64,000 nt of DNA, from assembly GCF_900473935.1 (NCBI RefSeq), contig NZ_UCNN01000015.1:1-64000 (forward strand), given 5' to 3'. The position numbers and the translations under genes were made by a program. The notes under the pieces were generated by a model that was not told the DNA's origin, searched no databases, and saw only the letters and a list, made by a program, of their open reading frames with translations. Below are positions 38,755-61,540 of the stretch, in pieces (position 1 is the first letter of the stretch; the number at the start of each line of letters is the position of its first letter). Source of the DNA: Synechococcus sp. UW105 (GTDB lineage Bacteria; Cyanobacteriota; Cyanobacteriia; PCC-6307; Cyanobiaceae).

Positions 38755-40644
38755 CTATTCAAATTTAGTCAAAAATCTACGCCAGAGAGGTAAAGACAAA
38801 TCACAGTTAAATATTTTAGTAGCGTCAAATTGGTGATCAGATGCTTCGTCTATAAATGTTTGGCAAAACAGTAAGAGATCGTCAGCAGAACGAGCATAAT
38901 GCACAAAAGAAGAGGATCTTAAAGGTGAGTTATTCAAAAATTGCTCATCATGAAACAAGCAAACCTTAAAACCCATGAATAGACAATCTAAAATAACGGA
39001 GCTATTAGCAGGTACAATAGCTAGTTTGTAGAGAGGACGGAGGCTGGATAAAGGAAGATAGGAGATTTCTACAAATGGTATGGACTGCTTAACAAAAGAG
39101 AGAGTGGATGCAGTTGACGAGGGATGTGGTTTAAACAAAAAAGTGTATGTTCCGCCAGAGAGTGAGTATAGTTTTGATACAGCTGAAATCATTGACCTTG
39201 TATAGTTGTCATAAAAATCACCAAAAAATAGTATAGTAGGCTTGATATGCGAATTGCCAATAGTAGAAAAGGGTTTATGAGCCAGAGAATCAACTCTACG
39301 TACTAAATGAAGATAACGAAGAGATTCAACACGTATAACTCTGGATGGGTGAATGCCAAATGAGGTCCAGATCTGATCGGATAGAGGTCCAGATGAGGCA
39401 ATGATGTCTGCAGAAAGCCTAATGTCCTGGAGTAGTGTATCGTCAAGTGGTTGACGTAGCGAATTATCAAATAGCTTTAAATCCCAAAATCGAGTAGTTG
39501 AGTGAGGGTATGCAACAGATCTGCCGGAATGATTATTGTGAAATGCTTGAAGAGCAAGAGATTCCCAGCCAAAGCCCTCAGACAGATATAGGAAGAGAAT
39601 AGACGGAGGACTCGCTCTGAAGGCAGTATCGAATAAGTGAGAAAGTAGAATAGAATGAATAGCTTGTTTCCCGAAAAGAGAATTAATATACTCTTCTAAA
39701 AGTAGGGGATAAAAATCAAATTCTAAGATCTTGAATCTAGGCACATGAGTGTTGCTGACAAGTATTTTAAAGTAATCACAAATTGTGCTTTTGAGCACTT
39801 TTAGCGAGACAAAGGAAGAAATATCGAGATGAATATTATTTCCATTGTTATGGGCAAGTAGTTTAAAGAATAACTTTATAGACGGCAAAAGACCATTTGA
39901 GGGCATATATATATGCAAAAAACGTAAGGGGCTATTTGAATATGCAGGCAAAGCAGAAGGTAGACTAGCCCAAAACTTGTCTGTCAATGATTGGTCAAAT
40001 ATGGAGGAAACTGTAGCGTAGTTAAGTACAATAAAACTAGAGGGTAAAGAAGCCCATCGCTTAATATTCAAAAAGAGAATTGGAAAGCGAATGAAGCAAT
40101 AGCCAAGTAGCCAAGAGAGTGATTTAAATGAATAAAGAAATTTTCGCGTGATCGGTAGTGAATCAATTTTGTTGATTGAGGTTTTGAAAGGAGAAGATGT
40201 CCGATGATTGAGGACTGAATAAGATTTTTGTGTATCCGAAAAAATACTTCTTAGCAATAAGCATTCAGTCTCAAGGTATACATTAACGCGTGCTTTGTCA
40301 TCATACGTATCATTTATCCAACAACTAAATGCAAGACATTTAAGAATCAATGGTATGCAGCTGTTTGCTGAAAGATTATGCTTTTCATAAATAGTTGAAG
40401 CAGGCCAAATGTCAATATTGTTTGACAATGTGGAATAAAAAGGGATAGATTTGCAAATATCAGATTTAAGAGAGTGAACCCAATTAAGATAAATATCCTT
40501 GACTTGATTGGCATAGAGCTCGATGATGCGAGTAATAGGTAGGGCATTTATTGCCTCATGAGAATTATTATTCCACAGAATTATGGAGTCATAGCCGTAT
40601 GTCGATGGATTATGCTTTGAATCCCAAATTAGTATATTAGGCAT
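38755..40644 (-). CDS. Large protein of surface-carbohydrate type (possibly TIGR04326-like)
   Basis: 629 residues, rich in Ser, Leu and Ile. The C-terminal third reads like a GT-B transferase: GRSVAYPHSTTRFWDL, then ILFFGDFYDNYTRSM, FLFKPHPSS and LAIVPANSSVILDCLFMGFKVCLF, similar to CMP-sugar-type or glycerophosphotransferase-like donor domains. The N-terminal start NILIWDSKH and central helical part resemble the surface-carbohydrate family TIGR04326 seen with LIC12162 proteins, but I am not certain. No signal peptide or membrane helix. The gene's 5' side abuts a deletion-scar-like region. Confidence 0.55.
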   Translation of the reverse strand: MPNILIWDSKHNPSTYGYDSIILWNNNSHEAINALPITRIIELYANQVKDIYLNWVHSLKSDICKSIPFYSTLSNNIDIWPASTIYEKHNLSANSCIPLILKCLAFSCWINDTYDDKARVNVYLETECLLLRSIFSDTQKSYSVLNHRTSSPFKTSINKIDSLPITRKFLYSFKSLSWLLGYCFIRFPILFLNIKRWASLPSSFIVLNYATVSSIFDQSLTDKFWASLPSALPAYSNSPLRFLHIYMPSNGLLPSIKLFFKLLAHNNGNNIHLDISSFVSLKVLKSTICDYFKILVSNTHVPRFKILEFDFYPLLLEEYINSLFGKQAIHSILLSHLFDTAFRASPPSILFLYLSEGFGWESLALQAFHNNHSGRSVAYPHSTTRFWDLKLFDNSLRQPLDDTLLQDIRLSADIIASSGPLSDQIWTSFGIHPSRVIRVESLRYLHLVRRVDSLAHKPFSTIGNSHIKPTILFFGDFYDNYTRSMISAVSKLYSLSGGTYTFLFKPHPSSTASTLSFVKQSIPFVEISYLPLSSLRPLYKLAIVPANSSVILDCLFMGFKVCLFHDEQFLNNSPLRSSSFVHYARSADDLLLFCQTFIDEASDHQFDATKIFNCDLSLPLWRRFLTKFE

Positions 40645-41147: not shown

Positions 41148-41864
41148 TCATTCATAGATGTGATGATCAAAATATGTATCAGGATGGATTAGTAAATAAA
41201 TTAAGGGATGCAGGGAACGGACATGCTCAGAAATAGATCTGGTATCACCAGATTGCAATTTTCCATGCGAATAACATTTCCATTGAGTCCACTCAGAGTC
41301 ACTAATGTAGAAAGATGAATTAAATAAATTAAAACTCGGAGAATTGTCATAGGCCTCATAAACAAGGCCAAACTCTTCAGGATTACGATCAACCCAAAAA
41401 TCTAAATTGTTAAATCCTGTCATGCCGCCGTGACTAGCTACACCACGGACTGATATATCGAGAATAGTGTTCAAAGTTGATAAATCCCTACGTAAACAAT
41501 CTGCCGGATCTTCATGCCAGATACAGGCTTGGTCAATAATTTCACTATGATAACCTATTTCATGTCCTGAATCGCGAATTGACCTTAAAATTTTATAACT
41601 TTCGAAAGAGAACGGGTTGTATTCTTTTGCATGTAAGCGGACAAAAAAAGTAGCATTAATCCCTAGCCGATTAAACATCTCTTTCAAGCGATCTGCTTTT
41701 TTGACAGACATATCGATATCTACTCTGTTGACAATGGTTAGAGGCGAAAGATTGCATTTTTTTTGAGAGTATTCAAAACATGAAATAAATTCATATCCAG
41801 CTTTAATTGCTGCAATATATTGATTTTCCAAATTTTGATATGTAAAGCTAAATTTTTTTTTCAT
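41148..41864 (-). CDS. Polysaccharide-deacetylase-like protein
   Basis: 238 residues, NodB-like fold. Motif 1 is VNRVDIDMS (the paired Asp), then ATFFVRLH, and SGHEIGYHSEIID. In classical NodB deacetylases the last motif has HxxxH as zinc ligands; here only the first His is followed by SE, and no second His at +4. A similar HEIGYHYE form occurs in deacetylase-like proteins of O-antigen loci. So metal use and activity are uncertain. The ATG overlaps the HisF-like stop by 4 bases, so the two are translated together. Confidence 0.72.
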   Translation of the reverse strand: MKKKFSFTYQNLENQYIAAIKAGYEFISCFEYSQKKCNLSPLTIVNRVDIDMSVKKADRLKEMFNRLGINATFFVRLHAKEYNPFSFESYKILRSIRDSGHEIGYHSEIIDQACIWHEDPADCLRRDLSTLNTILDISVRGVASHGGMTGFNNLDFWVDRNPEEFGLVYEAYDNSPSFNLFNSSFYISDSEWTQWKCYSHGKLQSGDTRSISEHVRSLHPLIYLLIHPDTYFDHHIYE

Positions 41865-42622
41865 TTTAAAAGCCCATGAATTAATTTGTTGTCTGGGAAA
41901 TTTACTAACACTCCCATGCCTTGTTTTTGAAACACAACCATACTGCCTAGAGCTACTGCAGAAGAGCCACCCTTCTTCACAACATTAACAATATCCTGTA
42001 AGTTGCCTGCACCACCATGAGCAATCAGAGGAATAGACAAGGCGTTGGCAACACTATGTACAAGCTCGAGATCAAAACCATTCCAAGTTCCTTCGCGATC
42101 GATAGAAGTAAGCATGATCTCACCAGCGCCGAACATTTCAGCTTTCTTCGCCCAGACCACCGGATCAAGGTCTGTGCGCCTTCGGCCATTCCGAGTACGC
42201 ACAGTATTTGCTCCGAAAAGTCCTCTCTTGACGTCAATAGAGACAATAACTGCTTGGCTCCCATAAACGGTCGATATTTCGCGGATAAGATCAGGTCTCT
42301 CTATCGCAGCAGTATTGATAACCACCTTCTCAATACCGGCAGCAAAGATAGCGCGAGCATCCTCCAACGAGCGGACACCGCCACCGATACCAAGTGGCAT
42401 GAAACACTCATCAGCCAGGTCAGCAATTAGGTGATAATCGGGTCCGCGATGAAAACGATCTGGAGTAATATCTAGTACTAATAGCTCATCAACCTCGAGC
42501 TCATTGAAAATACGAACGGTATTACAAGGGTCTCCGACATATTCAAATCGATTAAATTGGATAGTCTTGACTAGACAACCCTCACGAACAAGCAATACAG
42601 GAATAACTCTGGTTCTTAACAT
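41861..42622 (-). CDS. HisF-like cyclase subunit of an amidotransferase system (HisF2)
   Basis: 253 residues, TIM barrel: RVIPVLLVREGCLVKT, FNELEVDELLVLDITPDR, PLGIGGGVRSLEDA, EIMLTSIDREGTWNGFD and PLIAHGGAGN, which parallel HisF of histidine synthesis. Position next to HisH-like and WbpG-like genes shows it is the HisF2 of sugar amidine synthesis, which with HisH2 delivers ammonia to WbpG in Pseudomonas O-antigen synthesis. The LLVREG wording differs from the true HisF CLDVxxGRV start. Overlaps HisH by 7 bases. Confidence 0.88.
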   Translation of the reverse strand: MLRTRVIPVLLVREGCLVKTIQFNRFEYVGDPCNTVRIFNELEVDELLVLDITPDRFHRGPDYHLIADLADECFMPLGIGGGVRSLEDARAIFAAGIEKVVINTAAIERPDLIREISTVYGSQAVIVSIDVKRGLFGANTVRTRNGRRRTDLDPVVWAKKAEMFGAGEIMLTSIDREGTWNGFDLELVHSVANALSIPLIAHGGAGNLQDIVNVVKKGGSSAVALGSMVVFQKQGMGVLVNFPDNKLIHGLLK

Positions 42623-43227
42623 GAAAAGTACGCAAAGTTTTTTAATAGCTGCATACCGAAGCGGTGACTCTTCTCAGGATGGAATTGTGCACCCATTATG
42701 TTTGAATGTTGCACAGCAGCAGCAAAATCCTGTCCATGCCTGGTTCTCAGGACCGTGTCATGCGGATCGTCAGTTTTAACACAAAACGAGTGAACGAAAT
42801 AGAAGCGAATCTCCCCATCAAGGTGATCTGTGAGCTTAGATTGACGAGTTCGTTCCGCAACGTTCCAGCCCATATGCGGAATCTTGATACCAGATTCCGA
42901 AGGGATCCGACGAGTGACCGCAGGAATCCAACCTAAGCCAGGTCGGGTACCTTCCTCGCTTCCGCGTGTTAGCAGTTGCATTCCCAGACAGATTCCCAAT
43001 ATAGGCACCTTTTGATGCAGAGCTTTATCGTCTAACACTTGCCGAATTCCTGAATCATCAATCCTTTCCATCGCGGCATCAAACGCACCAACACCAGGAA
43101 GAATGATGCTAGAAGCATTCGAAATTCGCACCGGATCACAGGTTACTTCACAATCAACCTCAACCCGACGGAGCATATTAACCACCGAGCCTAAGTTGCC
43201 CATGCCATAATCAATAATAGTAATCAT
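42616..43227 (-). CDS. HisH-like glutamine amidotransferase (HisH2)
   Basis: 203 residues, class I glutaminase. It has IIDYGMGNLGSVVNML, nucleophile Cys in GICLGMQLL, and the His-Glu pair in GAQFHPEKS. It generates ammonia from glutamine and passes it through HisF2. The WbpG-like gene lies 5 bases upstream on the same strand. A duplicate of the histidine-pathway hisH would normally not be in a polysaccharide locus, so the sugar-amidine role is the better reading. Confidence 0.9.
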   Translation of the reverse strand: MITIIDYGMGNLGSVVNMLRRVEVDCEVTCDPVRISNASSIILPGVGAFDAAMERIDDSGIRQVLDDKALHQKVPILGICLGMQLLTRGSEEGTRPGLGWIPAVTRRIPSESGIKIPHMGWNVAERTRQSKLTDHLDGEIRFYFVHSFCVKTDDPHDTVLRTRHGQDFAAAVQHSNIMGAQFHPEKSHRFGMQLLKNFAYFSC

Positions 43228-43232
43228 TCAGA

Positions 43233-44417
43233 TTATTTAGATGGGAAACAATACTTCAAATAAAAGCTCATGGGGACTAGATCAGCTTTTGCGAGCAACT
43301 TAAACAGTAGTCTAAACCGCTCAAAACGTCTTTTATAGGTAGGGAATTCGGACCAATCACGTGGTGGCTCGCTCATGACAAGAGAGTACTCAGAAGGAGA
43401 GATATTAAGTCTCTTTAAAAAGTAGTCAAGCAATTGCCGCTCAACTATTGGAGGTGAATTGTACTCAGCCCAAGCAGTAGCGCGATCCATAGATCCATTG
43501 CGAACACGAGCTGCAAGTGTGTTATTCCGAAGATCACCACCGAATTTTTCCGGCATGTAGATACTATGGTAAAAAGCCGTCATACGGTTTTCAAGATGGT
43601 GTCCACCGTAATATTGCCAGCCATAACGCTGATTAAGAAGAAGTTGAGCTTCTTCCTTGGAGTAGTTAAGATACCAAAGAGGACGGATAAATTTCGGCTT
43701 GTCGATAATAGCTGACTTTAAAAACCTCGAAAACGTCATCAACGGATAGGTCCGTAACTGCTGCTCACCAAAAAGTCGATGGATAGACTGAATGTACTTG
43801 CCGTCGAAATAATTCCGCCCGAGTGGAGTAATACCTTCCTCAATAAATGAATGTCCTTCCAATATTGCACTAATTCCGTATTTAGCAGCCACTCTCCTCA
43901 GTGTATATGCATAACCCAAATCAGTAGAGGCTTCAATTTCAGCAACACCCGCGAAAAAAAAGGATCGAAAAATATCATCAATTTCTTTATTGTTTACAAC
44001 GTGAGTGTATAAATCAACCCCTGTGCTAAAAAGAACTTTACGAATATTCTGAGTCGCGATCGCAGTATTCCATGTGTTGTCGTAATGAACTGCAAGTGGT
44101 CGCAAACCCTGTTCGACTGCCCAATGAATAAGATATGACGAATCAGTCCCTCCACTAACGCCGATAACGCAATCATATCTTTTTTTTCGACCTTCAAAAC
44201 GGATCTCATCTATAATTTTTTTAAGGCGATTTTTACCATTTAACTTTCCTGTAGCGTACTGCGCTGACAAACTTTCGACCTGTCTACAATAGTTACATAC
44301 ACCCTCCGAATCGAAAGTGATAGAGGGTACGCGTTCATCGTAAATACATCGACTGCAAATACGAACGTTAGCAAGAGAAATATCCGGATTAAGCCTATAC
44401 ATTGCTGTTTCGGTCAT
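43233..44417 (-). CDS. N-acetyl sugar amidotransferase (WbpG family)
   Basis: 394 residues from ATG 44417; a second ATG at 44402 is nearly as plausible, and the frame extends to a TTG at 44432. N-terminal zinc-ribbon-like [11 protein letters not shown] and CNYC, then the PP-loop [19 protein letters not shown], and [12 protein letters not shown]. This is the WbpG/PseA type, which with HisH2/HisF2 converts an N-acetyl group into an acetamidino group on a nucleotide-linked amino sugar. The start overlaps the acyltransferase stop by 23 bases. Confidence 0.9.
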
Positions 44418-44937
44418 TAACAACAGGTCCAACTATTTGACATGGATTTCCGTAAGCCTTCATTGCATTTGGCACATCATTCAAAACAACACTATTTGCT
44501 CCAATAATACAGCCATCTCCGATACTTACACCTTTAGCAATGATAACGTTTGGACCAACATAACAATTACTCCCAACCGTTGTAGGAGCCCGCTCAATTT
44601 CAACATTGCCACCAGAAGTTGCCCATTTCACGGAATCGTGAGTATAAATCTGCACCCCCGCGGCAATAGAGCAATGCGAACCAATTGACAAACTCCCGGT
44701 ACCATCAAGTAACACCCAAGGACCTATCCAAGTATTAGCGCCAACAGATACATTGCCCAATACAATAGAACTATCGTAGATACTGGCTCCCTCTCCAAAA
44801 CCAAGAAGTCGTGCTTTTTCCCATCGATTAACGATATAATCACCGAACGGTAAAGTTCGCTTAATTTTAGTATTCAGATCATCGCGTGCAGCACGCCATA
44901 CGGTTTGGAGCCGACTCAAAGTATATTCTTCGTTCAT
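44395..44937 (-). CDS. Hexapeptide-repeat acyltransferase
   Basis: 180 residues. After ~45 helical residues there are left-handed parallel beta-helix turns ([57 protein letters not shown]), with the catalytic His in YTHDSVKWA, as in maltose/galactoside O-acetyltransferases. It probably acetylates a sugar of the repeat unit. The stop overlaps the WbpG-like gene start and its own ATG overlaps the asparagine synthase stop by 4 bases. Confidence 0.86.
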
Positions 44938-46811
44938 GACAAAACCTCATTTAAATACTGATCTACATTTAAGATTGACCAAATTAAAAGACGATTATTA
45001 CGTTCACCACGCAAATGTTGTTCTATAAGGGGGACGATAGCATTGCGGTCCAAAACAGAGTAGATAACGGCGTCATTATCAACGAGTCTATGTCTAACGA
45101 AATCGATGCTCTCGCCCCGAAACCAGCTTGCATCGGGAGAAGAAAAACCTTGCTTTTTAGCTTGCACTGCCTCGCTGGGGATATATTTTGCCATAACTTC
45201 GCGAAGTATCTGCTTCCCATCATTAGTCTTCTGAAAGTAGATATTCGGTTTATCGCTATGAACATTCTCATTGATTCGTAGAACTTCTGAAAGATTATTG
45301 AGCTTCAAGCCTACAGGACAAGACATAGCAAAATCCACAAGTTCGTTATCCATAAAAGGGACCCTATTCTCTAAACCATTCGCCATCGAAAGCTTATCTT
45401 CAACCACAAACAATCCATGCAGAAAAGTCTTGGCCTCAAGATATAGAGAATGATTGATATAATCTTCTGGTTTTACCAACTCATTGTCATGAGTTGCAAA
45501 GACACTCCTAAAGACATCTCGAGTCCATACTCCATCAACTTCATTAGCAATTGGTGCAAACATTTTTTTAAGTTGCTTGTTGTCCACTAGGCGCTGCCAG
45601 TAGAGATAATACTGATCGATGTATTGCTCGAAGTTCTGGCAATTAGCGGCCCTGTAGTACCGCCATGGATAACCGCCGAAAAGCTCATCTCCACCACTAC
45701 CAGATAACACAACCTTCACAAACTTACTAGTAAGTTTTGCTGCGTAATAGTTTGGATAACTCTGCCCAACGCGGGGCTCCTCAAGGTGACGCGCCACATG
45801 AGGCAGTGATCGTTCCATATCTCCTGCCTTGAGAACCATCTCGTAGTGCTCAGTCTTAAACTGAGCGGACATAGCTTCAGCTTTCGTACGTTCGTCAAAA
45901 GATAATTCAATGCCAGAGGCGGAGCTGAGATCGAATCCGCAAGTGAAAGTCTTGAGGTTAGAGCAACTCTGAGCAGCGATAGCTGTAATTGAACCCGAAT
46001 CCATGCCTCCTGATAGGTATGCACCGAGCTCTACATCGCCCACAAGTTGCCTATTCACAGCTTGCCTGAAAAGCCGGTCAAGTTCCTCTACATACTCTTC
46101 GCGGCAAAGTGGGCTCTGAGGCTCACGGAAGCGGTAGTCCCAGTAACGATGGAGCTCCAAGCAATCAGCTTGGTCTAATCTCAGCGTCAGGAAGTGACCA
46201 GCCGGCAAGATGTTGATGTCCTGCAGCAGTGTCTGGTCGGTGAAGATGTTCTGAAAGGTGAAATATTCGAGCAATGCCGGCTTATTAAGCTCTCGTCGAA
46301 AACCTGGATGGGCAATGATTGCCTTCTGTTCTGAGCCAAACGCAAATCGGCCCGACTGGTCGCTGTAGTAGAGGGGCTTGATCCCGTAGCGATCGCGCGC
46401 AAGCAGCAGAGTTTGTTCCTTGCGGTCCCACAGAGCCAGCCCAAACATGCCGTTGAATTTCAGAAGCGCCTCCGTGCCCCAGCGCGCAAGCGCATAGAGC
46501 ACTACTTCGCTATCGGTTTGGCTGCGGAACCAGAACCCTTCTGCTTCTAATTCGGTGCGAAGTTCGCGGTAGTTATAGATCTCACCGTTATAGCTAAGCA
46601 CCCAGCGGTGGTCAGCGCTGATCATCGGCTGATGGCCCGCGGGGCTCAAATCGATGATGGCCAGACGCCTATGCCCGAGGCCAACATTGCCTTCTATCCA
46701 ATGGCCTTCACTGTCAGGACCGCGGTGCTCAATCGCATCGGTCATCTTTTTGAGAATGACCGGAGATATCGGATCCCCGTTGAAATCGATCAGACCCGTA
46801 ATGCCACACAT
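44934..46811 (-). CDS. Asparagine synthase (glutamine-hydrolysing) homologue
   Basis: 625 residues. N-terminal Ntn glutaminase begins [12 protein letters not shown] with the nucleophile Cys2 and EHRGPDSEG; the C-terminal synthetase has the PP-loop [17 protein letters not shown] and [19 protein letters not shown]. Many exopolysaccharide loci carry such AsnB-like proteins, which are thought to amidate a sugar carboxylate rather than make asparagine. Given the uronates predicted here, a GlcNAcA-type amide is a plausible product. This is inference; a housekeeping asparagine synthetase cannot be excluded. Confidence 0.88.
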
Positions 46812-48016
46812 CAGAGCAACCGACTAAGCACAACATCAATCACATGCTTCTGCTCATCGGCGAGCATCCCATGAAACAGGGGCAACGAAATACTGCAATC
46901 GTTGGCAGCCTGAGCTGCAGGGAACTGTTCAGCCTTTAATTCGTACTTCTTTCGGTAGTAGCTGAGCATGTGCACTGCATGAGTGGCAGGGCGGGTTGAC
47001 ACACCCTGCTGCTGTAACTCTTCCATCCAGGCATTCCGCCGCTCATGCACTGCGTTGAGCTGCTGCTGATTGCCCGTCTTTAGGGCCTGGTGCACTTGGA
47101 TGGGTTCAAACAAGCATGGGTAGCTCTGAAAGCCGTGGCCGTAACCGGCTGGCGCCGCCGGTGTCTGCAGCCAATCCAGATCAGCAAAGGCAGTGTCATA
47201 GGTCGCTGCCAGATGTCGGCGTTCAGCCACGATTGCATCAGCGCGTTGCATCTGAGAGGCGCCCAGCGCAGCCTGGAGGTCGGTCATACGCTGGTTGTAA
47301 CCGGCCTCAGGATGATCTGCTAGCAGATAGGGCCTCGGACCTAGGTGCCGCTGGAGATCACTCATAGCCGCACCGTGATCCCGCAGACGTCGCAACCGCT
47401 CAGCCAACTGGGCATCGTTAGTGGTGATCATCCCCCCCTCGCCAGTGGTGATCGCCTTTCGAGGGTGAAAACTGAAGCAGCCAGTATTCCCTAGTGACCC
47501 GACATGGCTGCCCTTAAAGGTTGAACCGAATCCGCAAGCTGCATCCTCCACCACCCAGAGCCCATGGCGCCGGGCTACGGCATTAATGGCCTCCATATCA
47601 GCAGCCAGGCCGAACAAATGCACCGGCAAAATCGCCTTAGTACTAGGGGTGATCAGCTCTTCAAGGCCGGCGGGGTCAATGTTGAAAGTTGCCAGATCAA
47701 TGTCGGCAAACACCACGCTGCCACCAAGGTGCTCCACCACGTTGGCGGTAGAAATCCAGGTAAAAGCGGGCACAATGGCTTCGTCACCTGGACCAAAACC
47801 TAAAGCCGCCAAAGAGAGATGCAGGCCTGTTGTGCAGCTGGTAACCGCAATACTGTGCTCAGCCCCCGTGAACGCGCTCCAGGCCTGTTCAAAATCCCGC
47901 ACCTTGGGGCCCTGCACCAACCATCCGCTACGCAACGGCTCAAGCACGCTTTGAATTTCAGGCTCAGTGAGGCCTGTGCGAGCAATCGGAATGTTCATTG
48001 AAGGATGATTGCTCAT
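46811..48016 (-). CDS. DegT/DnrJ/EryC1/StrS aminotransferase
   Basis: 401 residues, PLP-dependent, vinylogous type I fold. ARTGLTEPEIQSVLEPLRSGWLVQGP start, EHSIAVTSCTTGLHLSLAA, VPAFTWISTANVVEHLGG, LWVVEDAACGFGS and the PLP Lys in SFHPRKAITTGEGG. Transfers an amino group to a 4-keto or 3-keto sugar nucleotide. The second aminotransferase (52752-53888) belongs to the WbpE branch, so this one probably makes a different amino sugar with the SDR partner next to it. Start overlaps the epimerase stop by 4 bases. Confidence 0.9.
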   Translation of the reverse strand: MSNHPSMNIPIARTGLTEPEIQSVLEPLRSGWLVQGPKVRDFEQAWSAFTGAEHSIAVTSCTTGLHLSLAALGFGPGDEAIVPAFTWISTANVVEHLGGSVVFADIDLATFNIDPAGLEELITPSTKAILPVHLFGLAADMEAINAVARRHGLWVVEDAACGFGSTFKGSHVGSLGNTGCFSFHPRKAITTGEGGMITTNDAQLAERLRRLRDHGAAMSDLQRHLGPRPYLLADHPEAGYNQRMTDLQAALGASQMQRADAIVAERRHLAATYDTAFADLDWLQTPAAPAGYGHGFQSYPCLFEPIQVHQALKTGNQQQLNAVHERRNAWMEELQQQGVSTRPATHAVHMLSYYRKKYELKAEQFPAAQAANDCSISLPLFHGMLADEQKHVIDVVLSRLL

Positions 48017-49014
48017 GCCGAGACCCTCTGTGCATCGCGACGGGCTTCCACCTCAGCCTTATGAGAAGAGCGCCAATCGATCAAGCGCTGCAGGCCCTCC
48101 CGGAGATCGGTCGCAGCGGTATAACCGATTTCTTGACTTGCTTTCTCAGGACAACCGATACGGTTACGAACGAGAGTGGCCTGGCTACGCGGTGCATAGT
48201 TAATGGTGTTCGATGTGCCCGTGAGTTCGATCAACAACTCAGCTAAATCTTTGAGAGATGTTCTAATTCCTGTTCCGACATTGTAGAAGGAATCAGAAGC
48301 TGTCGCCTTCATAGCGCACACATTAGCTTGAGCACAATCTTCAACAGAAACAAAATCAAACGCCTCTGAGCCGTCTCCAAGAATGGTTGGACTTTCGCCA
48401 CGATCAATAGCATCCAACATCTTCATAATTACAGCGATGTAAGCTCCCTGATAGTCCTGACGGGGCCCGTACACGTTCATGTAGCGCAGACCCACATAAT
48501 CAAGTCCATAGCGATGATGAAATGAGCGCAACATCGCTTCGCCGCATATTTTGGTAGCTCCATAGAAATTTTTATTATTAAAGGGATGGTCTTCGGTCAT
48601 TGGCTCGCTTAGGGCATCGCCATAAACAGAAGCCGATGAGGAGTAAACCAGCCGCTCTACCCCTGCCTTAGTGCATGCCTCCATCACATTGAAGGTGCCG
48701 CGGACATTCACATCAAATGCGGAGCGCGGAAACTCATGACACTGGAGCAGCCATAGCGCTGCCAGATGGAACACACCGTCAGCGCCCTGCATAGACGCCT
48801 CCAGGATGTCGCTTTGAAGAATATCACCGCCGATATCATAAACCTTGAAGCGTGGGTCCTGGCGGGCCTGAGCCAGATTTTCCATGCGCCCACGCACAAA
48901 GTTGTCATAAACAATCACCTGACCTACATCTTCTTTGAGAAGTGCATCAACCGTGTGGGAACCTATCAGGCCGGCACCACCAATCACGAGGAGCTTCTTA
49001 CCGCGAATGTCCAT
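48013..49014 (-). CDS. NAD-dependent sugar epimerase/dehydratase
   Basis: 333 residues. NAD motif IGGAGLIGSHT, active-site YSSSASVYGD and YGATKICGE (YxxxK), then RYMNVYGPRQDYQGAY. It belongs to the extended SDR group with UDP-glucose 4-epimerases, but the exact reaction cannot be told. Located between aminotransferase and L-2-hydroxyglutarate oxidase genes. A WbpP-type C4 epimerase of UDP-HexNAc(A) is one option, and 4,6-dehydratase is less likely because the TDE motif is not visible. Confidence 0.82.
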   Translation of the reverse strand: MDIRGKKLLVIGGAGLIGSHTVDALLKEDVGQVIVYDNFVRGRMENLAQARQDPRFKVYDIGGDILQSDILEASMQGADGVFHLAALWLLQCHEFPRSAFDVNVRGTFNVMEACTKAGVERLVYSSSASVYGDALSEPMTEDHPFNNKNFYGATKICGEAMLRSFHHRYGLDYVGLRYMNVYGPRQDYQGAYIAVIMKMLDAIDRGESPTILGDGSEAFDFVSVEDCAQANVCAMKATASDSFYNVGTGIRTSLKDLAELLIELTGTSNTINYAPRSQATLVRNRIGCPEKASQEIGYTAATDLREGLQRLIDWRSSHKAEVEARRDAQRVSA

Positions 49015-50246
49015 CAGTTAGAAAACAAAGAAGATTGATCAAGGATGAGGTCAGCCAAAGCGAAGCTAGCCGTGAACGCAGGGGAAATAGCATTCAGCAC
49101 ATGTGTACTGGAATGGCCATGCTCCAGTCGAAAGTCCTGCACTAACTCCCCTGCTCTTCGATCGTAGAGCTGAGCACGAATGCCTACCTTCTGACTCGGG
49201 ATTAGATGCTCACTGCGCAAGCCCGGTACCAAGGCCTGAGCTGCTTTGAGAAACAAGGGCTTGATGCCATGCAGGGCCTGCTCTCTCGCATAGCGGCGAA
49301 AGCCGCCTGCGTTGCGCCACCACTGGCTAGCTAGATCGCCCATGAACTGAATGGCCATGAGCGGCTCAATCCCCTCGAAACCTCGGTAGTTTTCACGTCC
49401 CAAGGCCGGGATAGCCGTTGGCCCAAGGCTAACCGTGCCATCCGGGCTGGGTGTCACATGAACACCTAAAAATGGTACGTGCAGATCTGGAACTGGATAA
49501 AGATTGGTGCGAAAATTAAAGGGAGCACGTGGATGAAGCTGCCAGTAGATGCCCTTAAATGGCAAAAGTGTGCAGCATTCTCCTAGTCCAAATGCACGCG
49601 CCACACGATCGGCCTGTAAACCTGCAGCATTAAATAAAAAACCATATGTAAACGTAGTAGTGGTGTCGCCAAGTTGTGAAACGCGGAGCTGCCTCGCTTG
49701 CGGGTTAACAGCATCCAACTGAGCTCCGACAATAAACCTTACTCCCCGCTCCTTGAGCCGTTGCTCTAACCGCTTAAGAACCAGCTTGGGCTTTACCACG
49801 CAAGTACTTGGACTCCATAGAGCTCGACTCGAGGCTGTGTGGCCATCAGGCACCAGCTCGAGAAACTTCTCTTCATCGATCAGCTTTACCTCAGCACCAT
49901 TGGCACGACCGCGCTCGAGAAGCAACTCCAACTGGCCATCAAGCTCAGCAGTCTGAGGCACAATTACCTTGCCACAGGCCAGCACAGGTAAGCCCTCAGA
50001 TTCACACCATGCGCGTAAGCGCTTGGCTCCCTGCACGCATACATTTGCCTTGAGAGTTTTCGGAGGGTAATAAATTCCGGCATGCAAAACACCACTATTG
50101 CGACCGGAACTGTGTCGCCCGATCTCGGGTTCCTTATCGATCACAGCAATCGAAAGATGTTTGTCATGTTCGATGAGTTGATTGGCTATTGCCATCCCAA
50201 CCATTCCACCACCCAATATGACAATATCGCTGATGACCTCAGTCAT
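49014..50246 (-). CDS. lhgO: L-2-hydroxyglutarate oxidase (LhgO-like)
   Basis: 410 residues, FAD-dependent. FAD motif VILGGGMVGMAIA (12-17), then GRHSSGRNSGVLHAGIYYPPKTLKA, typical of LhgO and its human counterpart, and HVTPSPDGTVSLGPTAIPALG near the middle. LhgO oxidises L-2-hydroxyglutarate to 2-oxoglutarate and passes electrons to quinone. It overlaps the downstream SDR gene and lies 3 bases from the WbpB-like gene, whose family (WlbA/WbpB) produces 2-hydroxyglutarate when recycling NADH. Within a nucleotide-sugar operon it is therefore likely a recycling enzyme. Confidence 0.9.
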   Translation of the reverse strand: MTEVISDIVILGGGMVGMAIANQLIEHDKHLSIAVIDKEPEIGRHSSGRNSGVLHAGIYYPPKTLKANVCVQGAKRLRAWCESEGLPVLACGKVIVPQTAELDGQLELLLERGRANGAEVKLIDEEKFLELVPDGHTASSRALWSPSTCVVKPKLVLKRLEQRLKERGVRFIVGAQLDAVNPQARQLRVSQLGDTTTTFTYGFLFNAAGLQADRVARAFGLGECCTLLPFKGIYWQLHPRAPFNFRTNLYPVPDLHVPFLGVHVTPSPDGTVSLGPTAIPALGRENYRGFEGIEPLMAIQFMGDLASQWWRNAGGFRRYAREQALHGIKPLFLKAAQALVPGLRSEHLIPSQKVGIRAQLYDRRAGELVQDFRLEHGHSSTHVLNAISPAFTASFALADLILDQSSLFSN

Positions 50247-50249
50247 GAG

Positions 50250-51362
50250 TCAATGCTCCAATGGCAGGTGCACCGATCGGCCATCACGGGCAGAGCGATA
50301 AGCGCCGATCAGCAATTCCAAGCTACGTAGCCCCTCGAGACCGTCACACATGGCTTCTGCCTTACCCTGCAGAGCATCAAGCATATTGGCATAGTATGGC
50401 AGATGGCCAAAACCATATACGCTAGTGGTTAGGTAACTGGCATGCTGCACCTCGGCATCATCTGCGCTTTCGTCGGCGAAGGCCCAATGCTCAATCTTGT
50501 TAACAGCCGGCCCACCGATCTTCACCGTACCAGTTTCTCCCAATAGCGTGATCGAACCCTCCAAGTTCTTCGGGTAGGCAAGCATCGTCACTGCCATCGT
50601 TCCCAGGGCACCGTTACACCAACGCATCTGCAAAGCAGCGGTGTCTTCTGCCTCAATCTTTCGACCCAGAGTTGCAGTTGAAGCACTCAAACTTTCGACC
50701 GGACCAATCAACCAGTCAAGAAGATCGATATAATGACTTGCCTGATTCATCAGAGCTCCGCCATCCATATTCAGAGTCCCACGCCATTCATCTTGATCGT
50801 AGTAACTTTGGGGTCTTTGCCAAAAGACATTAACCGCCACCAATGCCATCTGACCAAAGCGGCCGCTCTGTATTTGACGCTTGACTAACTGCAGTGTGCT
50901 ATTAAAACGATTCTGCTTCACAACAAATAACCTCACGCCCGCTTGATCACATGCCTTGACCATTCCCACCCCATCATGCCATTGAGTAGCCATCGGCTTT
51001 TCAGTGCAAACGTGAATTCCAGCTTCAGCTGCTTGAATGGCTTGACTGGAATGAAGGCCGCTTGGAGTTACTAAAACCATCAAATCCACTAACGTAGATT
51101 TAGTCTTGACAGCTTGAACCAACTCGCCATAGCTGGTGAACTGATCCACATTCTTAGCAGCACCCGGGTATTCGCCCGCTGCATCAGCGATCAATTGCTG
51201 GGCCTGCTCCAGGCGGTCGGCCTGGGTGTCGCAAATGGCCACAAGCTCTGCCCGATCTTGATGCGCTGCTATCGCTTTGATGTGGTTTCGGCTGATCCGA
51301 CCACAGCCCACCAGGGCAATTCTGATGCGGTGTTCGGTAATCGGAGTACTTGGTTTATCCAT
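50250..51362 (-). CDS. wbpB: WbpB/WlbA-type UDP-GlcNAcA 3-dehydrogenase (Gfo/Idh/MocA)
   Basis: 370 residues. IALVGCGRISRNHIKAI (dinucleotide motif 19-24), GIHVCTEKPMATQWHDG with the conserved EKP, KQNRFNSTLQLVKRQI and NQASHYIDLLDWLIG match the WbpB group. It oxidises C3 of UDP-GlcNAc uronate; known members keep NADH bound and regenerate it with 2-oxoglutarate. It is followed upstream by WbpA, then WbpE and WbpD-like genes, giving the expected pathway set. Gene symbol is by analogy to Pseudomonas. Confidence 0.88.
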   Translation of the reverse strand: MDKPSTPITEHRIRIALVGCGRISRNHIKAIAAHQDRAELVAICDTQADRLEQAQQLIADAAGEYPGAAKNVDQFTSYGELVQAVKTKSTLVDLMVLVTPSGLHSSQAIQAAEAGIHVCTEKPMATQWHDGVGMVKACDQAGVRLFVVKQNRFNSTLQLVKRQIQSGRFGQMALVAVNVFWQRPQSYYDQDEWRGTLNMDGGALMNQASHYIDLLDWLIGPVESLSASTATLGRKIEAEDTAALQMRWCNGALGTMAVTMLAYPKNLEGSITLLGETGTVKIGGPAVNKIEHWAFADESADDAEVQHASYLTTSVYGFGHLPYYANMLDALQGKAEAMCDGLEGLRSLELLIGAYRSARDGRSVHLPLEH

Positions 51363-51366
51363 CTAG

Positions 51367-52695
51367 TCAAGCCCTAATGACGTTGTTGGATGGTTGAAAA
51401 CGCCCTCGGCTATCAATCATCACCTGGCTGTGGCTGGCAAGGAGCGTGTATTCAAAGGCGTCATGGTCTGTAGCCAGTACCACCGCATCAAAAGAGGCCA
51501 CAGATTCGGCTGTGAGCACCACACTTTGAAGCGCAAACTGGTGCTTCCGCATCGGAGGAAAGCTTGGGAAGAAGGGATCGCTGTAGTGCACATCTGCCCC
51601 CTTCGACCGGAAGAGCTCCATCAACTCCACAGAGGGCGACTCGCGCATATCATCCACATTTTTTTTGTAGGCAATCCCCAGAACCAACACCCTGCTTCCC
51701 ATCAAAGGTTTACCAGCCTGATTTAGAGCATCGGCCGTTTTTTGTACTACATAGGCGGGCATAGCTGTATTGATCTCTCCCGCCAGCTCAATGAAGCGGG
51801 TATGCATGCCATATTCTCGCGCTTTCCACGTGAGATAAAAGGGATCTATCGGAATGCAATGGCCGCCGAGGCCAGGACCAGGGTAGTAAGGCACAAAGCC
51901 AAAGGGTTTGGTCGACGCAGCTCGGATCACCTCATAGAGATCGATCCCCATGCGATCAGCAAGAGGCTTCAGTTCATTCATCAAACCAATGTTCACAGCC
52001 CGGTGAATATTCTCGAGCAACTTGGTCATCTCAGCAGCCCTTGTACTGCTTACCGGCACCACCTGGCTGATCGCCTGTTCATAAAGCGCTATGCCCACTT
52101 CTCTGCAAGCTGAAGTGCTCCCTCCAACTACCTTTGGAATCGTAGCTGTATTGAAATCAAGATTGCCAGGATCTTCACGTTCAGGCGAGTACACCAAGAA
52201 CACATCTTCGCCGATCGTAAAGCCACGCTGCTCGATGAGCGGCCGAAGCTCTTCCTCAGTGGTGCCCGGATAAGTGGTGCTCTCCAGGCTGATCACGTGA
52301 CCGGAGCGCAAGTAGGGAAGCAGTGCCGCCATCGTGTTGTGAATAAAACTGAGATCCGGCTCGCGGTATTGATTCAGCGGCGTGGGCACACAAAGAATCA
52401 AGGCATCCGCTTCCACAGCCCTAGTGAAATCCGTTGTGGCATCAAGCCGTTGCTGCTGCAAGGCCTTAACAACACGCTCACTATTAATGTGATTGATGTA
52501 GCTCTGCCCTTGATTGATCGCCTCAATCTTGCTCGTGTCGATATCGAACCCTAGAACTCGGTATCCCTGCTCGGCATAGGTGAGCGAAAGAGGTAAACCC
52601 ACGTAACCCAAGCCTGCCACGCCAATCAAAGCTTCCTTTTTGCGCAGGCGCTCCAGGAGAATTTGATGATGCTGAGAGGAAGAGAAGGCAGACAT
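51367..52695 (-). CDS. wbpA: UDP-N-acetylglucosamine 6-dehydrogenase (WbpA-like)
   Basis: 442 residues. NAD motif [12 protein letters not shown] (28-33), [25 protein letters not shown], and the catalytic Cys in [20 protein letters not shown]. The longer C-terminus and [12 protein letters not shown] wording fit WbpA, which makes UDP-GlcNAcA. It lies 4 bases upstream of the WbpB-like start on the same strand. The 56-base gap to wbpE upstream is AT-rich. Confidence 0.9.
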
Positions 52696-52751: not shown

Positions 52752-53888
52752 TTAATGCAAAGCTGCTGTCACCGCAGAGACCACTTGATCCTGATCCCGC
52801 TCGGACAGATAGGGATGCATGGGCAAGCTCATCACCCGCTCGCTGGCGCTCTTTGCCAAGGGAGTCGAACAGATACTGGTGGAGCTACTTTTAAACGGCT
52901 GAAGGGCGGGCTGCTGAGAGAGCAGGAGTGGGTAGTGCACCGCGGTGGGAATGCCATAGGCTTTGAGGTGCTCTTGAACAGATGTGCGATTATCCACCTG
53001 AATCGTATATTGCGCATAAACACTTGTATTGCCCAGCTCGAGATAGGGCGTAGTGATAACACCAGCCTTCTGTAAGCATTTGCTGTAACGCTCACCAATC
53101 TGCTGGCGACAAGCTACTTCTCCATCAAAAACTTCAAGCTTTGCCAGTAAAATCGCGGCTTGCAGCGTATCAATACGGCCATTCACACCAACCTCGGTAT
53201 GGAAATATCGCCGGCTTTGACCATGGCGGGAAATACGGCGCATCAGACCCGCGATCTCAGCATCATTGGTGAAACATGCTCCGCCATCGCCGTATCCCCC
53301 AAGAGGCTTGGAAGGGAAAAAGCTGGTAGTACCGACTGTGCTGAGACTGCAGCTGCGTTGCCCACGCTGTTGAGCCCCAAAGCTCTGGGCACCATCTTCA
53401 ATGACAGGCAACCCATGGCGCTCGGCGATCGTGTTAATAGCGAAGAAATCGGCCGGCTGCCCATACAGGCTCACCGGAATAATGGCCTTAGTGCGGGGCG
53501 TGATCGCCACCTCAATCTTGCTGGGATCCAGGTTGTAAGTACGCGAATCAATGTCGGTATAGACTGGTACCGCACCGAGCAATGCAATGGTTTCCGCGGT
53601 CGCGATGTACGAAAACGGCGTAGTAATCACCTCATCTCCAGCTCCAACACCAAGCGCCATCAGGGCGATCAGCAGAGCATCGGTACCACTGGCCACAGCG
53701 ATGCAGTGCTCAACTCCCACATAAGCAGCCAAGCGCTTCTCCAGCTCAGCCACCTCAGGGCCAAGGATGTATTTGCCGTGGTCCAGCACAGCTGCAATCC
53801 GGGCATCCACTATCTCCCTCAAGCTTTGCTCATCTGCTAAACGCTGTTGCTGCTGAGCTTTAAGATCTATGAATTGCATCGTGATCAT
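52752..53888 (-). CDS. wbpE: WbpE-type aminotransferase (DegT/DnrJ/EryC1/StrS)
   Basis: 378 residues. [10 protein letters not shown] start, [58 protein letters not shown] and the PLP Lys in [17 protein letters not shown] match WbpE/WlbC, which aminate the 3-keto UDP-GlcNAcA with glutamate. An ATG three codons in (53879) is an equally good start. It overlaps the upstream acetyltransferase gene by 4 bases. Confidence 0.9.
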
Positions 53889-54499
53889 CCGGCGGAATGA
53901 GCTGATGGCGCAGGTTGGTATCTCAATTGCTCTCCGTACAGAGCATATTGATCACCGGTATGAGGACAAATCCATTTGCCAGCTCCAGACAATGGAAGAT
54001 CAACCCGCTCGCCATAAGCACTCATCCATCCAATCTGACGCGCAGGTACACCGACCATCAAGGCAAACGGTTTCACATCCCTGGTCACTACAGAACCAGC
54101 GCCCAAAAAAGCGTGATGACCTATCCGAATTCCGCATACAATAGTACAATTGGCACCAAGAGTGGCACCGCGCTCAACCCAAGTTTCACGGTATTCTTCT
54201 CTACGAGATACTTTTGAACGTGGATTATACACATTTGTGAACACCATGCTCGGCCCGCAAAACACATCATCCTCCAGAGTCACGCTTTCATACACTGAGA
54301 CATTATTCTGAATTTTAACGTTGTCTCCTATCCGAACTCTGTTGCCGACAAATACGTTCTGACCAAGCGAGCATCCCCTACCAATTACCACACCTGAGCT
54401 AATATGGACCCAATGCCAAATGCGACTAAAGTCACCAATAACTGCGCCTTCGTCAACAATAGCAGTGCAATGAACACTAGCTGTAGGATGAACCGACAT
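53885..54499 (-). CDS. wbpD: WbpD-type UDP-GlcNAc3NA N-acetyltransferase
   Basis: 204 residues, left-handed beta-helix: repeated hexapeptides from residue ~5 ([20 protein letters not shown] through [19 protein letters not shown]). [11 protein letters not shown] and [30 protein letters not shown] correspond to WbpD/WlbB. It acetylates the C3 amino group to give UDP-GlcNAc3NAcA using acetyl-CoA. First gene of the wbpD-E-A-B-lhgO run, so the promoter should lie in the upstream 337-base spacer. Confidence 0.9.
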
Positions 54500-60658: not shown

Positions 60659-61540
60659 TCAAAGATCCTTAGGTGTGTGAGCCTTCGCAAGAATGGGTCC
60701 GCTAATACTGGAACCCTGTTGGATCGTGCCTACAGCCCCGACACAGGGTGGCGAGATAGCAAGAGAGGAATGCACGCCGGTCCGATTAAAAATCTCGGAC
60801 TGATCAAAATGCCCTTCTATCACAAACCAATCGATATCGTGAACGTCATCAGGTACTGGACGTCCTACTGCCTCATAAGCCCAGCTGTAGTGGGCTGTAA
60901 ACACAACACTAGGAACATTGGTCCCTGCCATGACTAGTCCATGATTTGTGATCGCTTCACGAATAAAGCGATCACAAACAGGCCCCAAGTACGGCGGCAT
61001 CATCCCCCAAAGAGGCAAGACACGGAAACCGGAGGGGTAAAAGACGTAGCAGGAGGTATCAACATGACGAAGGGCATAGTCTTCGTCCGCCATCCCGGGA
61101 ATCTCAGTGCCGTCGGGAAGCGCACACTGCCTTCCCATTGCCAGAACATCCGCATTGGGATGGCGATGGTGCAGTGACACCATCGTCTTTAAGTGCCATG
61201 GCCTGAACCAGTTGTCAGCGTCGAGAAACAGAATTGGCCAGTAGCCTTGATTGATCGCCGAAATCGCCCCGAGACAGCGAGGGGTGTTGCCGTTATCAGC
61301 ATGAGCCTTGGGCAAGGTGATGTGATCGACATCCCAACCAGCCAGCTCAGGTCGTGGATGGCCATCCGCGACCATCACATGTCGAAGTGGCCAATCTCCC
61401 TCCTGCTCCTGGCAGCTGCGATGACAGCGCTCCAGCACAGCAAGCGATTCCTCGTAATAGGGAGTGATCACCGCTGCACCACGTGGAGCCATCGCTGAGC
61501 CGCGAGGGGCAAGATTGGAAACGTTGCTGAGAGCTGTCAT
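60659..61540 (-). CDS. Glycosyltransferase family 2-like
   Basis: 293 residues. [26 protein letters not shown], then HVMVADG, and [14 protein letters not shown] with the DxD-like motif. The rest contains [12 protein letters not shown] and FDQSEIF. Its start overlaps hisS by 4 bases, so both are in one operon. The acceptor is unknown and its role need not be in the capsule locus; high GC and codon use look like core genome. Confidence 0.82.

Follow-up and report, generated by a model that had tools for sequence, protein, structure and literature searches.

The window analysed here, a stretch of 64,000 nucleotides from Synechococcus sp. UW105 (contig NZ_UCNN01000015.1), belongs to a genome of 2.66 Mb that is 99.9% complete and carries on its minus strand a capsule-type sugar cluster. 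Within this cluster the gene for a predicted L-2-hydroxyglutarate (L-2HG) oxidase, LhgO, lies between a homologue of the dehydrogenase WbpB and a short-chain dehydrogenase/reductase (SDR), here called F22. A recycler of L-2HG within a nucleotide-sugar pathway is, as a general idea, well supported. The first-pass annotation of this DNA had named WbpB as the enzyme releasing the 2-hydroxyglutarate; with modest confidence we favour F22 in its place, as an SDR sugar dehydrogenase whose L-2HG LhgO would recycle, handing the electrons to quinone. The gene order, its recurrence, the substrate residues of LhgO, the pairing of F22 with LhgOs of multiple lineages and the presence of LhgO beside homologues of Campylobacter Cj1427 were computed in this work, while published reports provide that Cj1427 makes L-2HG (PMC10680097), that Escherichia coli LhgO reduces quinone (PMC6265302) and that the classes of WbpB differ (PMC10622841).

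In the proposed route a UDP-sugar would be the substrate of F22, which would keep its NAD(H) tightly bound and oxidise the sugar, probably at C4; we infer the activity, cofactor behaviour, substrate and position of attack of F22 alike. 2-Oxoglutarate would take the hydride from F22 and leave as L-2HG, in the manner of Cj1427, and LhgO would return it to 2-oxoglutarate, passing two electrons to quinone. The aminotransferase encoded at 46811-48016 would then aminate the keto-sugar formed by F22. The net reaction would be sugar-OH + glutamate + quinone -> sugar-NH2 + 2-oxoglutarate + quinol.

LhgO and its pairing with F22

The genes on which the argument turns are the following:
50250-51362, minus strand: WbpB/WlbA homologue (UDP-GlcNAcA 3-dehydrogenase) of the WlbA class, 370 aa (3q2k 454.6 bits, 3q2i 442.6 bits; 3o9z, named wbpB, 36.2 bits)
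49014-50246, minus strand: LhgO, predicted FAD-dependent L-2-hydroxyglutarate:quinone oxidoreductase, 410 aa (NCBIfam NF008726, PDB 8w75, six substrate residues)
48013-49014, minus strand: F22, extended SDR with a GalE fold, putative source of L-2HG as a proposed nucleotide-sugar dehydrogenase coupled to 2-oxoglutarate (TGATG overlap, recurrence beside LhgO, fold)
46811-48016, minus strand: second DegT-type aminotransferase, which would act on the keto-sugar from F22 (305 bits with the PseC model, under its cut-off of 423.5)
44934-46811, minus strand: AsnB-like amidotransferase, conserved end of the module (TIGR01536 445 bits, above the cut-off of 267)

As the first-pass annotation had stated, LhgO and the WbpB/WlbA homologue adjoin, with 3 bases from the WbpB stop to the LhgO ATG. 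It had passed over the junction on the other side, where the LhgO stop overlaps the F22 start by one base (TGATG). This second junction is the conserved one and WbpB accompanies it as part of the same sugar pathway, since WbpB (at least 200 bits) was found in 10 of 15 F22 loci and in none of 65 other LhgO loci in the survey described below. The neighbourhood of WbpB and LhgO does recur in other genomes, namely in G020 and in the Prochlorococcus loci L067, L068 and L069, and all four also have F22 on the other side of LhgO.

The identification of the oxidase stands: the protein passes the curated equivalog cut-off of NF008726 by a narrow margin (303.1 versus 299 bits). Its best PDB match is 8w75 (E 1.3e-51), the L-2-hydroxyglutarate dehydrogenase of Drosophila (dmL2HGDH), in which S88, H92, Y289, L299, H302 and R393 are reported to contact 2-oxoglutarate (PMC10726252). 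In the alignment with 8w75, the window LhgO keeps all six, as S51, H55, Y250, L260, H263 and R357. These residues are invariant in 10 cyanobacterial homologues and kept in 98, 98, 99, 99, 98 and 86 of 99 homologues, respectively; among the surveyed loci the conservation of S51 and H55 is partly built in, because both lie in the patterns used to pick the 80 loci. Every LhgO from an F22 or Cj1427 context that covers the six sites keeps all of them, both carboxylate contacts included. The six residues make L-2HG the most likely substrate of the window LhgO, as far as sequence can tell; dmL2HGDH was reported inactive on malate, lactate and D-2-hydroxyglutarate (D-2HG) (PMC10726252). Escherichia coli LhgO is reported to oxidise L-2HG to 2-oxoglutarate with reduction of ubiquinone (PMC6265302), so that quinone is a reasonable candidate for the electron acceptor here, and the earlier proposal of electron transfer to quinone gains support by analogy.

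At R357, His replaces Arg in each of the 13 deviating homologues. They make up a single group (Zoogloeaceae, Azospira and a betaproteobacterium), which lies outside both sugar contexts (loci L109, L113, L114, L115, L118, L119, L121, L122, L125, L126, L127, L129 and L130). Arg357 corresponds to dmL2HGDH Arg393, the contact to the C5 carboxylate, and the His variants possibly act on another substrate; tblastn typing found neither F22 nor a Cj1427-like SDR alongside them. The closest named relative of the window LhgO, among the best 80 of 463 relatives, is that of Synechococcus L066 (77% identity). The genome also encodes one FAD-oxidase_C protein, considered as an alternative recycler acting on D-2HG; its best models are those of GlcD glycolate oxidase, at 521 and 505 bits and so under their cut-offs (897 and 568), and YdiJ, a D-2-hydroxyglutarate dehydrogenase (D2HGDH), comes far lower at 116 bits.

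Co-occurrence was analysed among Synechococcus, Prochlorococcus and Cyanobium relatives of the same order, in searches of 150 and 399 genomes. In the 150 genomes, LhgO (E 1e-40) was present in 20, WbpB (E 1e-60) in 15 and both in 5, a mild excess (p 0.03). With the four F22 genomes set aside, the two genes occurred together in 1 of 146, which is what chance predicts (odds ratio 0.8, p 1.0). Among the 399 genomes, F22 was found in 6 and WbpB (E 1e-90) in 23; all six F22 genomes have WbpB, and in all six a close LhgO (52-100% identity) adjoins F22. None of the 17 WbpB genomes without F22 has a close LhgO in the 10.6-32 kb examined around WbpB; one of them, G050, has a homologue of 31% identity at 7.5 kb. 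The difference is significant (Fisher p 1e-5, or 7e-5 if the G050 homologue is counted), with p-values that overstate independence because the genomes are related. Nine of the 17 were also part of the 150-genome search and have no LhgO genome-wide at E 1e-40, and seven, from outside that sample, were checked in local DNA only. WbpB stands directly beside LhgO in two of the six F22 genomes (G000 and G020); the distance is 1.8 kb in G205 and G216, 4.5 kb and on the other strand in G017, and about 12 kb in G104. LhgO tracks F22, not WbpB.

A wider survey covered the best 80 of 463 LhgO relatives on contigs of one genome per species, typed by tblastn at 250 bits for F22 and 200 bits each for Cj1427-like SDRs and WbpB; it partly overlaps the order sample (shared DNA L066/G216, L071/G104, L087/G277 and L088/G254). 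By these bit scores 15 loci carry F22, 21 a Cj1427-like SDR (with 9 weaker ones) and 35 neither. The F22 loci come from Synechococcus, Prochlorococcus, a groundwater cyanobacterium, several Proteobacteria (Thiosymbion, Methylomicrobium, Sphingorhabdus, Sedimenticola, Herbaspirillum and others) and a Cloacimonadota bin. F22 starts 6-49 bases past the LhgO match in 14 of the 15. AsnB was matched in all 15 (at least 709 bits), and an aminotransferase lies between F22 and AsnB in all four order-sample F22 loci drawn and, judged from the genes listed for each locus, in 12 of the 15 loci of the survey. Two of the F22 loci that lack WbpB at the threshold are L134, which has a dehydrogenase of the PAO1 class instead (307.2 bits to 3oa2), and L071, where the WbpB of the same genome is 12 kb off. 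In the ten F22 loci outside picocyanobacteria, median identity to the window is 77% for F22 (range 54-81), 69% for AsnB and 46% for LhgO; for WbpB it is 57% (six such loci).

In a tree of 99 LhgO sequences those from F22 contexts appear in several places. The F22 label has to switch at least 8 times, and the starred branches force 3 of these switches; the tree does not separate gain from loss. A single clade for the F22-context LhgOs was rejected (p-AU 2.8e-7) with 42 of the 99 rows, comprising 18 distinct F22-context sequences and 24 others picked by hand. Long, distant or partial sequences (L053_g, L050_g, L054_g, L133_x, L051_g, L052_g and L049_g) and the duplicates L039_g and L047_g were dropped, the remaining rows being simply unpicked. 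The same SDR F22 therefore stands beside different LhgO lineages, as a need for LhgO activity at these loci would predict.

The second context of LhgO is provided by heptose clusters. Among 15 non-F22 LhgO loci drawn from the order sample, 9 have a sugar-1-phosphate nucleotidyltransferase directly after LhgO, and 7 of these 9 a GmhB-type phosphatase directly before it; further on there are usually GmhA, an HldE-type kinase and one or two SDRs. By sequence, the solved protein closest to the last SDR of the cluster is Cj1427 (6vo6, E 4e-34), and Cj1427 chains (6vo6/6vo8) rank 1-4 against the predicted structure of the L079 protein (TM 0.82-0.83). Cj1427 is reported to be a GDP-heptose C4-dehydrogenase that binds NADH tightly; 2-oxoglutarate oxidises this NADH and becomes L-2HG (PMC10680097). 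A Cj1427-like SDR (E 1e-60) was found in 22 of the 399 genomes, and the examined DNA of 15 of these contains LhgO (two being distant homologues, 33-34%); in a further three, G277, G254 and G044, LhgO lies 10-13 kb from the SDR on the same contig. Closer relatives of Cj1427 occur in LhgO loci of a Campylobacteraceae bin (L131, 393 bits) and an Omnitrophica bin (L138, 367 bits), and in L143 a homologue ends 45 bases before the LhgO frame. An operon of Bacillus/Peribacillus (L136:8375-13672, L145:8345-13685) reads RmlA, an unknown protein of 251-255 aa, LhgO, RmlC, a Cj1427-like SDR with the motif SPRMRFD, and RmlD, the RmlA of L145 being assigned by similarity of gene order only. LhgO thus recurs within sugar-nucleotide clusters of several phyla, and common to these contexts is an SDR acting on a nucleotide sugar.

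Some individual loci deserve mention. The comparisons run recognised no RmlB near the Bacillaceae operon, which may lead to a non-deoxy L-sugar much as the Campylobacter route leads to heptose. Genome G397 (L213) is a natural exception, with GmhA, a nucleotidyltransferase, an HldE-type kinase and a Cj1427-like SDR and no LhgO in the 19.9 kb examined. In G016 (L045:9443-19900) LhgO is followed by a nucleotidyltransferase, GmhA and an open frame of 2628 aa that runs to the end of the examined DNA, in which no Cj1427-like SDR was found. A further pairing of LhgO with an SDR is seen on two Prochlorococcus contig pieces in which no heptose markers were found: LhgO stands directly before an SDR of 34-36% identity to the Cj1427-like SDR in L073:10001-12074, and before a 30% fragment at the contig end in L070:7598-9412.

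The source of the L-2-hydroxyglutarate

The recycler proposed by the first-pass annotation holds in part: an LhgO of the L-2-hydroxyglutarate dehydrogenase type, with a full substrate site, recurs in sugar clusters, and what does not hold up is WbpB as its partner. That WbpB itself reduces 2-oxoglutarate to L-2HG for LhgO to recycle is suggested by the 3-base gap, by the same adjacency in G020 and L067-L069, by the presence of WbpB near most F22-LhgO modules (10 of 15 in the survey, 6 of 6 in the order sample) and by the reported reduction of 2-oxoglutarate by Pseudomonas aeruginosa WbpB (PMC8651671). Against it stands the absence of a close LhgO from the DNA around WbpB in all 17 WbpB genomes without F22, G050 offering only its 31% homologue, and from nine of them genome-wide; and two of the F22 genomes have their WbpB at distances of 4.5 and 12 kb.

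The class of the enzyme argues in the same direction. The window WbpB matches 3q2k and 3q2i over nearly its full length (454.6 and 442.6 bits); we take these to be the WlbAs of Bordetella pertussis and Chromobacterium violaceum. Its match to 3o9z, a wbpB of the other kind, is 36.2 bits, and 3oa2, the PAO1 WbpB, is not among the best 60 of 72 matches; the dehydrogenase of L134, with its 307.2 bits to 3oa2, served as control. By similarity the window WbpB would then fall outside the ping-pong class of P. aeruginosa and within the WlbA class, if the organisms behind 3q2k and 3q2i are as we assume. The P. aeruginosa enzyme is described as ping-pong with 2-oxoglutarate, those of B. pertussis and C. 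violaceum as sequential (PMC10622841). Because it groups with the sequential class, the window WbpB should work with free NAD+ and release no 2-hydroxyglutarate. The enantiomer, too, speaks against WbpB: the product of PAO1 WbpB contains D-2HG, recycled by D2HGDH, according to a D-specific biosensor that is blind to the L form, some of which may be present as well (PMC8651671). The D enantiomer was one of two outcomes that the first-pass annotation had named as refuting its reading, and within the reach of that assay it holds for the PAO1 enzyme; the other, a lack of LhgO-WbpB neighbours in any other genome, is contradicted by G020 and L067-L069. WbpB was rejected as the main partner on the 399-genome comparison, the class assignment and the PAO1 enantiomer taken together, and we regard it as an unlikely source of the L-2HG.

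F22 has the features of an extended SDR (GxxGxxG, YxxxK and the GalE fold), with G12/G15/G18, Y151 and K155 invariant in 13 homologues. Its predicted model (pLDDT 86) aligns with 4zrm at Z 37.4 over 302 residues (root-mean-square deviation 2.0). 4,6-Dehydratases carry a catalytic Asp-Glu pair after the Ser/Thr of the active-site strand; this strand reads SSSASVYG in all 13 aligned F22 homologues and lacks the pair, so that F22 does not fit a 4,6-dehydratase. Its coupling to 2-oxoglutarate is suggested by the fixed partner LhgO together with the downstream aminotransferase, which needs a keto-sugar, and it is the weakest step of the proposal.

Several points weigh against F22 as the source. By sequence and fold its nearest relatives are UDP-sugar 4-epimerases, closely followed by 4,6-dehydratases; an epimerase works without an outside oxidant. 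F22 was also rejected as an orthologue of Cj1427 (26% identity, 58 bits to the cyanobacterial Cj1427-like SDR): no match from the 15 F22 loci has an SPRMRLD-type motif, and the best 60 of the 112 PDB sequences matched by F22 do not include Cj1427 (its absence from the 50 matches given by a second structural alignment carries no weight as a negative). F22 is rare, with 6 of 399 genomes, and the sampled genomes are related. In the F22 locus L106 the best F22 match lies 2.9 kb from LhgO. Two genomes with a Cj1427-like SDR, G397 and G050, have no LhgO in the examined DNA and no contig end to blame (a distant homologue in G050 is more than 35 kb from the SDR), and in G232 and G161 LhgO is likewise absent from the examined DNA, near contig ends. 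By a motif-based count, 26 of the 80 survey loci have a Cj1427-like SDR and 39 lack both F22 and any Cj1427-like SDR with the motif. LhgO therefore has further uses; the 39 include some heptose clusters that lie on short contigs.

These partnerless loci, with the very wide distribution reported for LhgO (PMC6265302), fit a general metabolite-repair enzyme that came to lie in a capsule island by chance. This we consider very unlikely, given that LhgOs which do not form one clade stand within a one-base overlap to 49 bases of one SDR family in several phyla, and that LhgO is present in only 20 of the 150 order genomes at E 1e-40, unlike a housekeeping gene. An LhgO whose direct substrate is a pathway intermediate, either a sugar or a sugar acid, and not 2-hydroxyglutarate, would agree with the narrowly passed family cut-off and with clusters of such differing chemistry as diamino-uronic acid, heptose and dTDP-sugar. 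Since the sugars differ between contexts, the same diversity argues for a shared small co-substrate; the six 2-oxoglutarate contacts kept in every covering homologue of both contexts, and the narrow specificity reported for dmL2HGDH (PMC10726252), likewise make a sugar substrate improbable. F22 could, finally, be an ordinary 4-epimerase, as its nearest solved structures, mostly 4-epimerases, and its Y151/K155 pair suggest, with L-2HG coming from another enzyme of the cluster or the cell. In most loci, however, F22 is followed by an aminotransferase, which would require a free keto-sugar. WbpA is reported to depend on NAD+ as a dehydrogenase, and the WlbA class to be sequential (PMC10622841); a search of this genome for close relatives of Cj1427 found none (best 32%, 47.6 bits). 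We give this explanation very little credence.

With F22 preferred as the source of L-2HG, a broader rule would be that SDR nucleotide-sugar dehydrogenases passing hydride to 2-oxoglutarate are paired with an L-2HG:quinone oxidoreductase in many phyla; the case for this generalisation appears evenly balanced. L-2HG is familiar chiefly as a toxic by-product and as an intermediate of the lysine pathway. If the pairing holds, it would be made on purpose, as an electron shuttle from sugar-nucleotide oxidation to quinone: the quinone pool, not the NAD pool, would drive the oxidation of the sugar, L-2HG would never accumulate, and in cyanobacteria the synthesis of capsule precursors would be tied to photosynthetic and respiratory electron flow. 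The gene pair would then predict an activity for SDRs annotated only as epimerases, and LhgO beside an SDR would flag new keto-sugar-forming dehydrogenases such as F22 and the Bacillaceae Cj1427-like SDR. The assignment of WbpB as partner, tempting as it is, is probably wrong and is corrected here to the SDR.

Remaining genes of the cluster

In order of transcription the cluster reads WbpD-like, WbpE-like, WbpA-like, WbpB, LhgO, F22 and the second DegT aminotransferase, followed by AsnB, a hexapeptide acetyltransferase, WbuX, HisH and HisF. Features other than those given above are:
53885-54499, minus strand: WbpD-like hexapeptide acetyltransferase, named by position (NeuD/PglB type 74 bits, below the cut-off)
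52752-53888, minus strand: WbpE-like aminotransferase, named by its position between the wbpA-like and wbpD-like genes (DegT/PseC-type 217 bits, below the cut-off)
51367-52695, minus strand: WbpA-like nucleotide-sugar 6-dehydrogenase (TIGR03026 427.7 bits, above the cut-off of 189.8)
43233-44432, minus strand: WbuX N-acetyl sugar amidotransferase (TIGR03573 219.7 bits, above the cut-off of 203.2)
42616-43227, minus strand: HisH-like glutamine amidotransferase (PF00117 84.4 bits)
41861-42622, minus strand: HisF-like protein (PF00977 202.5 bits)

Elsewhere in the window, a protein of 629 aa (38755-40644) scores 160 bits with the surface carbohydrate family TIGR04326, below the cut-off of 250, and the open frames 41148-41864 (238 aa) and 60659-61540 (293 aa) have no Pfam/NCBIfam match at E 1e-5.

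Comparison with known systems

The recycling of 2-hydroxyglutarate in sugar-nucleotide synthesis is already published for the D form (2021; PMC8651671). In PAO1, as in the present proposal, a flavoenzyme returns the 2-hydroxyglutarate of sugar-nucleotide synthesis to 2-oxoglutarate, and loss of this recycler, D2HGDH, is reported to lower O-antigen; the system differs in the enantiomer and in the dehydrogenase, which also serves SerA (PMC8651671). A link from 2-hydroxyglutarate recycling to the making of sugar precursors is therefore not wholly new. For the version with L-2HG and LhgO no report was found in the open-licence literature, which makes for a weak negative, and none combining hydroxyglutarate oxidase with heptose.

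The closest solved relatives of the window WbpB, presumably the WlbAs of Bordetella pertussis and Chromobacterium violaceum, differ from the ping-pong class that uses 2-oxoglutarate. Their mechanism is reported to be sequential (PMC10622841). The UDP-sugar 4-epimerases GalE, WbpP and WbgU share their fold and the Y/K pair with F22. We know of no UDP-sugar 4-epimerase that travels with LhgO. In the CsiD-LhgO pathway of lysine and glutarate in Escherichia coli, LhgO likewise oxidises L-2HG and reduces quinone, the difference being that L-2HG arises there by hydroxylation of glutarate, in a catabolic route (PMC6265302).

A close parallel is Cj1427 of Campylobacter (PDB 6vo6/6vo8), an SDR reported to work, as proposed for F22, by a ping-pong mechanism in which tightly bound NADH and 2-oxoglutarate give L-2HG; the main text of that report contains neither the word LhgO nor hydroxyglutarate oxidase or dehydrogenase (PMC10680097). 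Cj1427 and F22 belong to different SDR subfamilies, as the 26% identity between F22 and the cyanobacterial Cj1427-like SDR illustrates, and homologues of Cj1427 sit in heptose clusters that bear LhgO.

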